This document shows, in pieces, positions 14,570 through 19,212 of a DNA stretch of 32,498 nucleotides (the first letter of the stretch is position 1; every line of letters begins with the position of its first letter). The stretch covers positions 1 to 32,498 of the forward strand of contig JAAYTG010000020.1 of NCBI GenBank assembly GCA_012518075.1. The letters are read 5' to 3'. Position numbers and translations under genes: made by a program. The DNA is from Clostridiales bacterium. Its GTDB lineage: Bacteria; Bacillota; Clostridia; Caldicoprobacterales; UBA3941. The notes under the pieces were generated by a model. It worked only from the letters and a program-made list of their open reading frames with translations, was not told where the DNA came from and searched no databases.

Positions 14570-16495
14570 TTGCTAGGTAAAATTCTTGGTGGTAGATACG
14601 AACTAATAGAAAAAGTAGGAGCAGGTGGTATGGCTATTGTGTATAAAGCCAGGTGTCACCTTTTAAATAGATATGTGGCGGTAAAAGTCCTTAGGCCTGA
14701 GTTAGTGGAGGATGAGAATTTTGTACAGCGATTTAAAAGAGAGTCTCAAGCCGCAGCAAGCTTGTCACATCATAATATTGTAAATGTATATGATGTTGGA
14801 CAAGAAGATGATATTTACTATATAGTGATGGAATATATATGTGGGAAAACCCTCAAGCAATTTGTTAGGGAAAAGGGGAAGCTGGAATCTGAAGAAGCCA
14901 TTAGAATAGCCTTGCAGATAGGGAATGCCCTTGAACATGCCCACAAGAATGGCATTATTCACAGGGACATTAAGCCTCAAAACATTCTAATAGGCGATGA
15001 TTATACAATAAAGGTGGCGGACTTTGGAATAGCAAGGGCTGTAACCTCGTCCACCATTACCCTGGCAGGATCAAATGTGGTAGGATCAGTCCATTATTTT
15101 TCACCTGAGCAAGCCAGGGGGGGATATATAGATGCAAAATCCGATCTTTATTCTCTGGGAATAGTTTTGTATGAGATGGTAACCGGAACACTGCCATTTG
15201 AGGGGGATACAGCGGTTTCCATAGCTATAAAGCATATTCAAGAAAATGTCAAGCCCCCTGAAGAGGTTAACCCTGAAATCTATAAAAGCCTTCAGGCAAT
15301 CATCCGAAAGGCAATTGAAAAACAACCTGAAAGGCGATATCAAAGTGCTAGGGAAATGAATAAAGATCTAAAGAGAGCTTTAGAGGAACCCAATGGTGAT
15401 TTTGTAAAAAATAACTATGATAGCGATGCACCGACTCAAATATTAAAACCTATAATCCTTGAAAATGAGCAAGGGGGTGAGGGAGATCCCAAGCCTGATT
15501 CGGAGTCCAATAAGTCGAAGAGGAAGCCCTGGATTAAAGCTATCCTTATAGGTATTTCCTTTATTCTAATAATGGCATTGGCTTTTTTCATAGGTACTCG
15601 CATTTATAAGAACAATTTTGTATCTCAGGAAATTGAGATGCCTGATATTAGGAATAAGTCATTTGATGATGCTCAAAGAATCTTAGAGGAGAATAATCTA
15701 TATATAAAAGTAGAAGGGGAAACTTATAATGATGAGATCAAGGAAGGATATATTGTTTCTCAGCATCCTGAGGAAGGGACAAAGGTAAAACCTGAGTATA
15801 CGGTCCGGGTTGTACTAAGCTTAGGATCAGAAACCGTTACAGTACCTGATCTTTTCAAAAACACTAAAAGAGAAGCTGAAATAATTCTTGAAAACCTAGG
15901 TTTAACAATAGGACAACATGAGTACAAAAATAGTGAGTACCCTAGTGATACCGTTATCGAACAATCTATACAACCTAATACACAAGTTGTTAAAGAAACA
16001 GAGATTTCCTTGATGATAAGCCTGGGGCCCGAAGAAAAAGTAGCCACAGTGGGCAATTATTTGGGACAGAAGCTAGATGTTGCAAAGCAGATGATCGACG
16101 GAGATAAGTTAAAACTAGGCAATATTGACCAGAGATATAGTGATACATCCAGCAAGGATACAGTAATAGAACAGAGCTTGAAACCTGGTGAAGTAGTTTC
16201 GGAATTTAGGGTGATTGACCTGGTAGTAAGTCTAGGCGCACAGCCTACTTATCCTAAGGAAATTAGTATTGATATGTCTAGTATAACCGATAGGGAGACT
16301 GTGAATATAGTTGTTAGAAAGACTCAAAACGGAAAGACAATGGAAGTTTATAATAGGTTTCATGCTGTAAACGATGAAGAGTTAACCATTAGATTGGAAG
16401 GTACAGGAGTAGCTGAATATGAAATTTATCTAGATGGTGAGCTTTCCTATAAGACCAATATAGACTTTACCAAAAAAGGGGATGAGGCTGGTTAA
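14570..16495 (+). CDS. prkC: PASTA-domain Ser/Thr protein kinase
   Basis: About 641 aa membrane kinase. Residues 1-270 form a Hanks-type kinase with GAGGMA, VAVK, HRDIKPQNIL, DFGIA and SPEQA; a single membrane helix lies near 324-343; three extracellular PASTA repeats follow (about 353-420, 422-488, 490-557), and a beta-rich tail ends the protein. The family senses muropeptides and controls cell wall growth and spore germination. The third PASTA repeat lacks the usual VPxL opening (VATVGNYLG). I chose TTG 14570, giving MLGKILGGRYELIEKVG as in orthologues, with GAGGGG 8 nt upstream; in-frame GTG 14561 and ATG 14564 overlap the prpC stop and sit against the ribosome site. Confidence 0.94.
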   Translation: MLGKILGGRYELIEKVGAGGMAIVYKARCHLLNRYVAVKVLRPELVEDENFVQRFKRESQAAASLSHHNIVNVYDVGQEDDIYYIVMEYICGKTLKQFVREKGKLESEEAIRIALQIGNALEHAHKNGIIHRDIKPQNILIGDDYTIKVADFGIARAVTSSTITLAGSNVVGSVHYFSPEQARGGYIDAKSDLYSLGIVLYEMVTGTLPFEGDTAVSIAIKHIQENVKPPEEVNPEIYKSLQAIIRKAIEKQPERRYQSAREMNKDLKRALEEPNGDFVKNNYDSDAPTQILKPIILENEQGGEGDPKPDSESNKSKRKPWIKAILIGISFILIMALAFFIGTRIYKNNFVSQEIEMPDIRNKSFDDAQRILEENNLYIKVEGETYNDEIKEGYIVSQHPEEGTKVKPEYTVRVVLSLGSETVTVPDLFKNTKREAEIILENLGLTIGQHEYKNSEYPSDTVIEQSIQPNTQVVKETEISLMISLGPEEKVATVGNYLGQKLDVAKQMIDGDKLKLGNIDQRYSDTSSKDTVIEQSLKPGEVVSEFRVIDLVVSLGAQPTYPKEISIDMSSITDRETVNIVVRKTQNGKTMEVYNRFHAVNDEELTIRLEGTGVAEYEIYLDGELSYKTNIDFTKKGDEAG

Positions 16496-17364
16496 TGAAA
16501 CAAGGAATTATTACTAAGGGTGTTGGTGGATTCTATGATGTTATAGTCGGACAGGATATCATTCGCTGCAGGGCAAGAGGTATATTTAGAAAGGATAATA
16601 TTGTGCCAATGGTAGGTGATAAGGTAAAGATATCTCTCAAGGATAAGGCAATCATGGAAATACTTCCTCGAAGAAATCAGTTACTACGACCTACTGTAGC
16701 CAATATTGATGTATTAGGTGTAGTGCTGACACCTACTCATCCTGCTCCCGATTTCTATCTGGCAGATAAGTTAATGATAAATGCAGAGAATGACGGAATT
16801 AAAGTGATACTTTTAATAAATAAGATAGACTTAACTGATGATAATGGCCTAAATAGTATCCTTAATACCTATAAATCCACAAACTATCCAATTATACAGC
16901 TGTCATGCAAAAAAAAATCAGGATTTGAAAGGCTTCATGAGCATATAAAAAACAATGTTGTGACCCTGGCTGGTCAATCAGGTGTTGGAAAAACCTCCAT
17001 CATTAATGTACTCTACCCAGAAAAGGAATTAGAAACTGGGCAATTAAGCGATAAAATCAGCAGAGGAAGACATACGACTAGGCATACCAGATTATTAGTA
17101 CTCCCACAAGGGGGAATGCTAGTAGATACTCCGGGTTTTAGCACTATGAATATGAGTGAATTAATGCCTGAGGACCTGCCGTACCTGTATCCGGATTTTT
17201 CGGACCATATTTATGGGTGTAGATTTAATGGTTGTATGCATGATAAAGAGCCTGGATGTATGGTTAAGGAGGCTGTATCTAGTGGATTTATATCCCAGGA
17301 AAGATATAAGAGATATATAAGAATACTAAATGAACTAAAGGAGTTTAGGAGGAACATATGGTAA
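16495..17364 (+). CDS. rsgA: ribosome small-subunit maturation GTPase RsgA
   Basis: 289 aa circularly permuted GTPase that checks late 30S assembly. An N-terminal OB fold (about 1-65) is followed by permuted GTPase motifs in the order G4 NKID, G1 GQSGVGKT, G3 DTPG, then a C-terminal zinc site YGCRFNGCMHDKEPGC. The start codon overlaps the prkC stop (TAATG) and the 3' end overlaps rpe by 7 nt. Called cpgA/yloQ in B. subtilis, where PrkC phosphorylates it, which agrees with its position next to prkC. Confidence 0.95.
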   Translation: MKQGIITKGVGGFYDVIVGQDIIRCRARGIFRKDNIVPMVGDKVKISLKDKAIMEILPRRNQLLRPTVANIDVLGVVLTPTHPAPDFYLADKLMINAENDGIKVILLINKIDLTDDNGLNSILNTYKSTNYPIIQLSCKKKSGFERLHEHIKNNVVTLAGQSGVGKTSIINVLYPEKELETGQLSDKISRGRHTTRHTRLLVLPQGGMLVDTPGFSTMNMSELMPEDLPYLYPDFSDHIYGCRFNGCMHDKEPGCMVKEAVSSGFISQERYKRYIRILNELKEFRRNIW

Positions 17365-18020
17365 TAAAAATTGCACCCTCGATACTCTCGGCCGATTTTT
17401 CAAGGCTAGGTGAAGAGGTGGAGATGTTGGATAAGGGAGGAGCCGATTATATACATATAGATATAATGGATGGACATTATGTCCCAAACCTAACCTTTGG
17501 ACCTATTGTTGTAAAGGCACTAAGAGACAGGACACAACTCCCCTTTGATGTACATCTTATGATGACTAACCCTATGGATTATATAGATGATTTTGTCCAT
17601 GCAGGGTCTGATATAATAACGGTACACGCTGAAGTATTGCCACATTTGCATAGGGCTATAGAGCAAATCAAACAAAAGGGAGTTAAAGCCGCTGTTTCGC
17701 TGAATCCATCCACTCCCCTCAGTGTACTTGACTATGTCCTGGAAGATCTGGACATGGTTTTATTGATGACTGTTAATCCTGGATATGGTGGACAGCAGTT
17801 TATTCCTGCCATGATGAATAAAATAAGAAAATTAAGAAGCAAGGCAGATTCTATGAATCTAAACCTAGATATACAGGTGGATGGGGGTATATCCTTGGAT
17901 AATATTAAGGAAGTAAGCCAAGCTGGTGCCAACATTTTTGTAGCGGGTTCAGCAGTATTTAACGCGCAGAATCCCAAGGAAATGATCAATCAAATGAGGA
18001 AAGAAGCAAGTGGATCATGA
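17358..18020 (+). CDS. rpe: ribulose-phosphate 3-epimerase
   Basis: 220 aa TIM-barrel enzyme interconverting ribulose-5-phosphate and xylulose-5-phosphate in the pentose phosphate pathway. Motifs IAPSILSADF, HIDIMDGHYVPNLTFG, FDVHLMM, VNPGYGGQ and the phosphate-binding VDGGI and GSAVF are all present, so it should be active. Its ATG has TTTAGGAGG directly upstream inside the rsgA end. Overlaps thiN by 4 nt (ATGA). Confidence 0.96.
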   Translation: MVIKIAPSILSADFSRLGEEVEMLDKGGADYIHIDIMDGHYVPNLTFGPIVVKALRDRTQLPFDVHLMMTNPMDYIDDFVHAGSDIITVHAEVLPHLHRAIEQIKQKGVKAAVSLNPSTPLSVLDYVLEDLDMVLLMTVNPGYGGQQFIPAMMNKIRKLRSKADSMNLNLDIQVDGGISLDNIKEVSQAGANIFVAGSAVFNAQNPKEMINQMRKEASGS

Positions 18021-18652
18021 AGGTAGTTATTATATCAGGAGGGGACCTGGGAGATGTTGACTACATAGAGGAACACTTGCCGGAGTGGGATTTGATTATA
18101 TGCGCTGACGGAGGGGCCAGGCATCTAGAAAAATTGAATCTTAGACCGAATATTTTGGTGGGTGACTTTGATTCCATTTCTCCCACACTATTGCAAAAGT
18201 ATAAAGAGATGGATATTACCGTAGAGCCATATCCTAGGGAGAAAGATTGGACAGACACCCAGATTGCGGTGGATTTGGCCATTGATAAAGGCGCTGATTG
18301 GGTTTATATAATTGGCGGTTTAGGTAGCAGATGGGATCATTCTTATGCTAATATAATGCTGCTCTACCGTTTGGCTAAAAAAGGGGTCAGGGCAAAAATT
18401 CTTCACATTAACAATACCATTGAGATTGCAAATGACATACTGGAGATAAGAGGCCAGGTGGGGCAAACCCTATCTCTATTACCCTTCTCCCAGGATGTCA
18501 TTGTTGAGTCTAGCCAAGGCTTAGCATATCCTTTAGATAATTTGACACTAGCATTGGATTTTCCTTTAGGTATCAGTAATATACTTAAGAAAGAGAAAGC
18601 TATAGTAAAAATTAGTCAGGGTTGGTTACTCGGGGTTTTAACTAATGAATAA
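18017..18652 (+). CDS. thiN: thiamine pyrophosphokinase
   Basis: 211 aa enzyme that makes thiamine diphosphate from thiamine and ATP. The family motifs ICADGGARHL, ILVGDFDSI (Mg/ATP site), EKDWTDTQIAVD and GGLGSRWDH are intact. It ends the translationally coupled chain; about 65 nt separate it from the next small ORF. Orthologue of B. subtilis yloS. Confidence 0.95.
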   Translation: MKVVIISGGDLGDVDYIEEHLPEWDLIICADGGARHLEKLNLRPNILVGDFDSISPTLLQKYKEMDITVEPYPREKDWTDTQIAVDLAIDKGADWVYIIGGLGSRWDHSYANIMLLYRLAKKGVRAKILHINNTIEIANDILEIRGQVGQTLSLLPFSQDVIVESSQGLAYPLDNLTLALDFPLGISNILKKEKAIVKISQGWLLGVLTNE

Positions 18653-18718
18653 AGACACATTAGTTAGCAGTAGTGCATAGATTAAAGTATACGCTACTAT
18701 ATGGGGATGTGAAATAAT

Positions 18719-18892
18719 ATGAAGCGGTATTGTCGTAAGAAAACCCCATTAACTGATATATTTATCGGTATTATTCTCGTTGGAGGGGGAATCCTATTAG
18801 TTCTATTTTATATTCCTATATGGGCTTGGATGACCTTGTTTGGCCTATTTTTGGTGGGGTTGGGAGTTCTCATTCTGTTAGGGCGGAGGTGA
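18719..18892 (+). CDS. 57-aa two-helix membrane peptide upstream of spoVM
   Basis: I do not recognise the family. The 57-codon frame encodes a basic N terminus (MKRYCRKKTP) and two hydrophobic helices (about residues 13-31 and 37-54) separated by YIPIW, ending in GRR, so a small hairpin-like membrane protein is likely. ATG 18719 has GGGGAT about 10 nt upstream. Its TGA stop (18890-18892) lies inside the GGAGGTGA ribosome site of spoVM, so the two are probably co-translated. CATAGATT at 18676-18683 resembles a SigE -10 element, but no matching -35 is clear. A sporulation role is inferred from context only. Confidence 0.7.
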   Translation: MKRYCRKKTPLTDIFIGIILVGGGILLVLFYIPIWAWMTLFGLFLVGLGVLILLGRR

Positions 18893-18896
18893 CCCT

Positions 18897-18968
18897 ATGA
18901 GAATTTATGTTATAAAACTACCGGGTTTTCTAGGAAAGCTGGTTAGGAAACTCAGAAGGGGAAGATAG
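18897..18968 (+). CDS. spoVM: stage V sporulation peptide SpoVM
   Basis: A 23-codon gene whose product, MRIYVIKLPGFLGKLVRK then a basic tail, matches SpoVM, the amphipathic peptide that recognises the convex forespore membrane and anchors the spore coat basement layer protein SpoIVA. The residue critical for curvature sensing, Pro9, is present, as are IKLP and FLG. B. subtilis SpoVM has 26 residues; this one lacks the last three or so. Position between thiN and rpmB is the same as in B. subtilis. GGAGGTGA ends 4 nt before the ATG. Small enough to be missed by gene callers. Confidence 0.9.
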   Translation: MRIYVIKLPGFLGKLVRKLRRGR

Positions 18969-19020: not shown

Positions 19021-19212
19021 TTAAAGAGCCCTTCTTACCTTCCCTGATCGGATGCACTTTGTGCATACCTTAATAGTTTTATGGCTTCCATCAATTATAG
19101 CCTTTACCTTCTTTAGGTTAGGCTGCCAAAATCTATTTGACTTTCTATTTGAGTGACTAACATTGTGTCCGGATAATTTTCCTTTTTGGCATATGTCGCA
19201 AACCTTGGCCAT
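19021..19212 (-). CDS. rpmB: 50S ribosomal protein L28
   Basis: 63 aa L28 of the zinc-ribbon type: cysteines 5 and 8 (CDIC) and 50 and 53 (CTKC), with GHNVSHSNRKSNRFWQPNL typical of the family. The start is the internal ATG 19212, giving MAKVCDIC, with GGAGGTG about 7 nt upstream; the ten residues before it in the open frame are read through the ribosome site. Transcribed against its neighbours, as in B. subtilis. Zinc-dependent form, so a zinc-free paralogue may exist elsewhere. Confidence 0.96.
   Translation of the reverse strand: MAKVCDICQKGKLSGHNVSHSNRKSNRFWQPNLKKVKAIIDGSHKTIKVCTKCIRSGKVRRAL

Follow-up and report, generated by a model that had tools for sequence, protein, structure and literature searches.

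A conserved gene for a small two-helix membrane protein directly upstream of spoVM in a Clostridiales bacterium and its relatives

The window, a 32,498-nucleotide stretch of a Clostridiales bacterium (contig JAAYTG010000020.1), carries between thiN and spoVM an open reading frame of 57 codons, ORF57, which starts with ATG at 18719 and ends with a TGA stop at 18890–18892. The features of the locus, in window coordinates, are the following:

16495–17364: rsgA, named by sequence and synteny
17358–18020: rpe
18017–18652, + strand: thiN, thiamine diphosphokinase, the upstream neighbour (TIGR01378, 167 bits)
18654–18684, + strand: putative sigma-K-type promoter of ORF57, GACACAT, 13 nt, TGCATAGATTA (CAC-N17-CATAGATTA), from motif comparison with dpaA-like genes and spoIVA of relatives and from the sigma-K promoters described in PMC3789822
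18703–18712, + strand: ribosome-site-like (Shine-Dalgarno-like) sequence GGGGATGTGA of ORF57, with similar strings in some relatives
18719–18892, + strand: gene for a 57-aa two-helix membrane protein (ORF57, "the hairpin"), from frame, homologues, selection and model
18749–18811, + strand: predicted helix 1 of ORF57, residues 11–31 (AlphaFold2 on alignment A4)
18818–18886, + strand: predicted helix 2 of ORF57, residues 34–56, with W35 at its start (AlphaFold2 on A4)
18885–18892, + strand: ribosome site of spoVM, GGAGGTGA, which overlaps the end of the ORF57 reading frame, stop codon included
18897–18968, + strand: spoVM, 23 aa
18973–19006, no strand assigned: DNA hairpin between the convergent spoVM and rpmB, returned by the terminator scan on the - strand only
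19021–19212, - strand: rpmB (ribosomal protein L28), the convergent neighbour, named by sequence and synteny

An earlier note on this DNA had described the frame as an unannotated membrane peptide with a ribosome site, a basic head and two hydrophobic segments, whose stop codon lies in the spoVM ribosome site. All of this was recovered: GGGGATGTGA precedes the frame, its N-terminal head is basic (MKRYCRKK), two helices are predicted in it, and the final codons CGG AGG TGA are themselves the spoVM ribosome site, with the spoVM ATG following four bases past the stop. The overlap of stop and ribosome site is common to all five same-family loci. No terminator-like site was found by the terminator scan between thiN and ORF57, so that transcript read-through from thiN is possible.

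In textbooks the spore coat is anchored by SpoVM, an amphipathic peptide of about 26 residues lying on the membrane. The peptide encoded after ORF57, MRIYVIKLPGFLGKLVRKLRRGR, scored 21.1 bits against Pfam PF08183 (SpoV; cut-off 20.6) and 29.2 bits against NCBIfam NF033436, which is below the cut-off of 31; the latter family exceeded its cut-off in just 21 of 398 genomes of the phylum. The gene was called spoVM on three grounds, namely the Pfam match, the conserved neighbourhood of rpmB and a K-L-P that is invariant among related peptides. SpoVM has been reported as not found in several clostridia, Thermoanaerobacter among them, according to PMC3533761.

Of 60 relatives, 25 have a homologue of ORF57 at the corresponding locus (61 genomes searched, its own included, with a check of neighbouring genes). 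These comprised 24 of the 29 other genomes of the same family and order and 1 of 31 other genomes of the class, where the gene adjoins rpmB (G036, locus L022). The homologues lie behind rsgA, rpe or thiN and mostly before rpmB where the stretch extends that far; rpmB was not detected in the fetched stretches of L006, L011, L024 and L028, of which L024 stops within the hairpin gene. In seven further stretches (L002, L003, L004, L013, L018, L023 and L025), thiN was undetected by tblastn and the hairpin gene was kept; rpe was likewise undetected in L002. Identity to the ORF57 protein was 63–70% within the family and 31–50% within the order. In the six pairs from four aligned copies, dN/dS ranged from 0.17 to 0.36, differences at second codon positions numbered 1 to 10 versus 8 to 27 at third positions, and second positions held 6–19% of all differences. 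Judged by these substitutions, purifying selection acts on the ORF57 protein.

Alignment of 22 sequences left M1, G24, P33, W35, G42 and G49 invariant; in an alignment of 37 (A4), G24, P33 and G49 were still invariant and G42 almost so. As A4 was built from matches of these same searches, its reach as a profile is fitted to that set. ORF57 matched no Pfam or NCBIfam family over its cut-off, and when the 37 members were scanned against both, any family reached at E<=0.01 was reached by two of them at most. A Foldseek search of the PDB found no match to ORF57 at E<=10, which carries little weight for a 57-residue hairpin. A chance open frame was conceivable, given that ORF57 is short and that 77 open reading frames of at least 20 aa overlap the 7-kb stretch, but it is refuted by the homologues at the locus, the invariant columns and the dN/dS values, and its probability is practically nil. 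The earlier note would have been contradicted by a lack of conservation in relatives, which did not occur: the frame is kept in the gaps before spoVM of relatives, and homologues lie at the locus in 24 of the 29 other genomes of family and order. By this comparison, ORF57 is a real, conserved, protein-coding gene of a family without a name.

AlphaFold2 applied to A4 returned a two-helix hairpin with a mean pLDDT of 84 (77–84 over the five models) and a pTM of 0.39, in which the conserved P33 is located in the predicted turn and W35 begins helix 2. The basic N-terminus, on which the transmembrane direction is based, suggests that both ends of ORF57 face the mother-cell cytosol; the basic head and the short C-terminus would thus be cytosolic and the conserved P-x-W turn would lie on the far side of the membrane.

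Among the 31 near genomes, 17 carried both the hairpin and SpoVM, 9 the hairpin without detectable SpoVM, 5 neither, and none SpoVM alone (the hairpin of G020 was counted from a 36-aa stretch at a contig break). All 17 with SpoVM (profile match, E<=3e-6) have the hairpin upstream. The nine assemblies with the hairpin and without SpoVM (G008, G011, G013, G014, G016, G017, G021, G025 and G036) gave no SpoVM profile match better than E=0.2 anywhere; 13 of the 17 genes that the profile finds had gone into its making, so that a very divergent SpoVM could escape it, and most searched assemblies are fragmented, which bears on absence. Genomes G005, G010, G023, G024 and G027 gave no clear match to either. 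With 9 of 31 genomes keeping the hairpin without SpoVM and none showing the reverse, the hairpin is not simply a SpoVM accessory.

At six of the SpoVM-less loci (L013, L014, L016, L018, L023 and L025), a terminator-like stem starts 5–19 nt after the beginning of the hairpin stop codon, and in L015 and L017 the distance measured likewise is 46 and 38 nt; L022 has neither a near terminator-like stem nor a spoVM-like remnant. By eye, a possible decayed spoVM start follows the hairpin gene in L017 (MRIIYFYIK-stop) and, in another frame, in L015 (ARIIV). Two genomes of one genus, G025 and G026, differ exactly in the presence of SpoVM. Outside the near set, G311, G441 and G208, from two other genera, look the same on inspection: they have the hairpin, and among the matches listed none to SpoVM anywhere in these genomes is better than E=0.7. 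The absence of SpoVM required four changes on the Rpe tree and five on the SpoIVA tree, of which well-supported branches force only one and two, respectively. Repeated loss of SpoVM is therefore likely on these trees, not proven.

Across the phylum, A4 matched 79 of 398 genomes at E<=1e-5 (own included), a few of them by chance; the likely chance matches, in long frames, are those of G140, G121, G085 and G254. For 54 of the 79, one of the SpoVM matches listed begins 10–170 nt further downstream, on the same strand as the hairpin. Inspection by eye covered 21 of the remaining 25 (all but G140, G085, G254 and G224) and revealed a SpoVM-like peptide just downstream in 13, a divergent one in 4 and none in 3; the match of G121 resembles the tail of some unrelated protein. 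The pairing count used 84 SpoVM matches among those listed, 62 at E<=1.5e-3 plus weaker ones chosen for a SpoVM-like look or nearness to an A4 match, with other weak ones omitted. Of note, the pair is inverted as a whole relative to rpe and rsgA in two loci of one genus (L032 and L034), which probably reflects one event. Where both genes are present, the hairpin-spoVM pair behaves as a unit.

Some genomes have SpoVM-like genes of other kinds. In four genomes of family f106, genus g140 (L037, L040, L041 and L042), a divergent peptide resembling SpoVM, extended at its N-terminus (e.g. ...EPKIYYIRIPDFIKKFLSSFTKSKK), is encoded 39–45 nt behind the hairpin gene. In L198–L205 and L212–L214 (families f70, f46 and f73), spoVM-like genes of 20–22 codons lie behind other genes, without the hairpin. 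Two-helix frames weakly similar to the family occur directly upstream of SpoVM in G230 (L196, 793–942, + strand, 50 aa) and G435 (L195, 387–557, - strand, 57 aa). The former aligned with A4 in hhalign at P=8e-4 and a probability of 24.5%, scores of a kind that membrane helices weaken. Both frames are possible distant members of the ORF57 family or analogues; small membrane neighbours of SpoVM do occur beyond the clear family.

These distributions bear on two explanations in which the hairpin would serve SpoVM only. If it served solely to chaperone or protect SpoVM in the membrane, it would be expected where it is found, adjacent to SpoVM in most genomes with both and upstream of it in all 17 near genomes that have SpoVM. 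This explanation is nonetheless unlikely, because the hairpin is retained in nine near genomes without detectable SpoVM and because a hairpin match precedes just 38 of the 62 SpoVM matches at E<=1.5e-3 and is missing from the other 24. The 11 best-scoring SpoVM matches are all among those 24, and within 160 nt upstream they have either a thiN-like frame of 214–239 aa (six) or no frame of at least 35 aa (five). Alternatively, ORF57 could be mainly a leader frame that sets spoVM translation by coupling, its own product mattering little. The location of the stop codon within the ribosome site of spoVM, seen at all five same-family loci, and the 4-base gap in the window fit such a leader, which we nevertheless consider very improbable in view of the purifying selection on the protein, the glycine and proline columns conserved over 37 members, the hairpin genes kept where no spoVM follows, and hairpin-spoVM gaps that reach 170 nt elsewhere.

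SpoIVA was found, by eye, in 76 of the 79 genomes with an A4 match versus 335 of 398 overall (Fisher p=0.0005), so the hairpin is rare in genomes without SpoIVA. The three exceptions are the window's own genome (G000), G363 and G140, the last with its A4 match in a 191-aa frame and probably due to chance. SpoIVA was not matched in the window's own assembly, which has 217 contigs and 93% completeness; a dpaA-like gene is present there, and the missing SpoIVA is perhaps an assembly gap. Among the near genomes, SpoIVA was present in 29 of 31 by one count and in 28 of the 30 besides the window's own by another, with a full match in each of the nine without SpoVM, where it measures 492–494 aa. Over its last 30 columns, mean identity was 0.87 within these nine, 0.96 within 11 with SpoVM, and 0.91 between the two groups. 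The C-terminus of SpoIVA is where SpoVM of B. subtilis acts, and its near constancy in length and C-terminus without SpoVM is as if a partner still docked there. In one reading, the hairpin would anchor the SpoIVA basement layer as an integral membrane protein, sharing the task of SpoVM and replacing it in lineages that lost it; we put this forward tentatively, with a low probability.

To characterize the promoter, EM was run on 26 upstream regions of the hairpin gene (own and 25 others). It returned GTCACyT, 12–13 nt, G(C/A)ATAtAA, located 31–58 nt before the start in 24 of the 26; L022 and L028 had no good site. On 20 spoIVA upstream regions it returned TCATAtT, 14 nt, (A/C)ATATAyAT, with a TCATA-type site in 20/20 when one site per sequence was forced. 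The dpaA-like genes of the same genomes mostly have, by eye, TGCAC(T/C) words at comparable distance. The pattern CAC-N15..18-(C/A)ATAnnnT was present in 20 of the 26 near hairpin loci and 17 of the 21 dpaA-like genes, as against 1 of the 20 spoIVA regions; in 300 mononucleotide shuffles of the 26 near regions, matches averaged 0.5 and never exceeded 4. Of 30 phylum loci, which include several from one genus, 15 had the same pattern and 15 did not (shuffles: mean 0.7, maximum 3). Sigma-E patterns (CATA) were found in 3 of the 26 near loci and in 0 to 2 of the 30 phylum loci, with a pattern that is strict, as it recovers just 10 of the 20 spoIVA promoters.

The 26 near loci exclude L026, L027, L029 and L030, which had no supporting neighbour gene or hairpin match (in L029, a weak hairpin match only). 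The dpaA controls are TIGR02853 matches that all fall under the family cut-off (none over it in 25 genomes), and TIGR02853 also weakly matches all 14 control genomes; 23 matches with E from 2e-85 to 6e-57 were taken as dpaA-like, and 21 entered the pattern count after removal of L147, whose upstream region is cut by the contig end, and L152, whose start was not located. In the spoIVA promoters of the order (L121–L140), a conserved ACTTGTCATA-type element, with TGTCATA in 20/20, overlaps the -35 region; its complement contains GACAAG, which we take to resemble the SpoIIID core.

Sigma-E was the first promoter class scored for ORF57, and the EM result and the pattern count with spoIVA and dpaA-like controls favoured sigma-K instead. 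A sigma-K promoter was described for dpaA in C. difficile by Saujet et al. (PMC3789822), and the window shows the AC of the -35 element and the CATAnnnTA of the -10 element taken as marks of the sigma-K regulon, as GACACAT ... TGCATAGATTA. On the strength of this motif, which is also kept in eight of the nine SpoVM-less loci (all but L022), late mother-cell expression of ORF57 is probable.

Taken as a late mother-cell sporulation gene, ORF57 would encode a hairpin located most likely in the outer forespore membrane. We infer a message shared with spoVM, so that where SpoVM is present the two would be made together from the sigma-K-type promoter; the hairpin would then work at the interface between the outer forespore membrane and the SpoIVA-based coat and help to hold or finish the coat, perhaps also the cortex, late in spore formation. 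We give a probability of about 0.5 to the reading in which ORF57 is made late in the mother cell, sits as a hairpin in the outer forespore membrane and acts at the coat-membrane interface. SpoVM would be similar to ORF57 as a small sporulation product of the same locus and may share the outer forespore membrane with it. The two differ in that ORF57 is a predicted integral hairpin with two helices, whereas SpoVM is an amphipathic peptide on the membrane surface.

In the main rival explanation, the task of ORF57 in the mother cell has to do with neither SpoVM nor the coat but, for example, with the cortex or, holin-like, with late lysis, its place beside spoVM merely supplying a late promoter. 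The nine of 31 near genomes that keep the hairpin without detectable SpoVM are in line with this, as are the retention of the sigma-K-type promoter at eight of their nine loci and the small size, basic character and two predicted helices of ORF57. Adjacency to SpoVM in 54 of the 79 matches and the joint inversion in one genus argue for a shared task instead, and the sole Pfam holin match, Phage_holin_3_6, had E=5.7 and 7.5 bits against a cut-off of 28.4. We regard an independent function as possible but doubtful, and the late coat role is favoured. As to the proposal of the earlier note that the peptide could be a partner of SpoVM, the link holds insofar as a membrane protein gene overlaps the spoVM ribosome site; against a strict partnership stand the 9 near and 3 phylum genomes with the hairpin and no SpoVM, the SpoVM matches without a hairpin, and the sigma-K-like promoter of ORF57 as against the sigma-E control reported for spoVM in C. 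difficile (PMC5607322).

The closest described counterpart is CD25622 of C. difficile, a protein of 50 aa and unknown function whose gene lies directly upstream of spoVM and is cotranscribed with it (Ribis et al. 2017, PMC5607322). Compared by description, it is similar to ORF57 in being small (50 vs 57 aa) and in the position of its gene, and C. difficile spoVM lies near rpmB, as in the window. That report calls CD25622 unique to Peptostreptococcaceae, whereas the ORF57 family occurs in many families of the phylum; it also places spoVM under sigma-E, in contrast to the sigma-K-type motif of ORF57. An insertion in CD25622 that is polar on spoVM had essentially the heat-resistance defect of a spoVM mutant, and the authors concluded that CD25622 has little impact on sporulation; SpoVM itself was largely dispensable, and the coat was detached in about 20% of sporulating cells of the spoVM and CD25622-spoVM mutants (PMC5607322). 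In mainly open-access literature, we found no report on CD25622 beyond this one and, among the titles and abstract beginnings of the matches listed, none of another such spoVM neighbour.

Two mother-cell proteins located in the outer forespore membrane, SpoVQ of C. difficile and SsdC of B. subtilis, are described as connecting the formation of coat and cortex (PMC8265636). The description of SpoVQ as bitopic, with a single transmembrane domain at its N-terminus, sets it apart from the 57-aa, two-helix ORF57. These precedents for the membrane location, together with the coat detachment in C. difficile, favour the late role in holding or finishing the coat.

We rate ORF57 as a new family of a known kind, the small membrane proteins with which the mother cell assembles the spore; it is linked to spoVM but also occurs apart from it. 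CD25622, regarded until now as restricted to one family, could be part of a broader group, and the hairpin gene provides a handle for finding divergent SpoVM genes. Encoded with SpoVM and kept where SpoVM seems gone, the hairpin is a candidate for a further holder of the coat to the outer forespore membrane, and its retention even where SpoVM is undetectable suggests that a probable contributor to the assembly of the outer spore layers has so far been missed.
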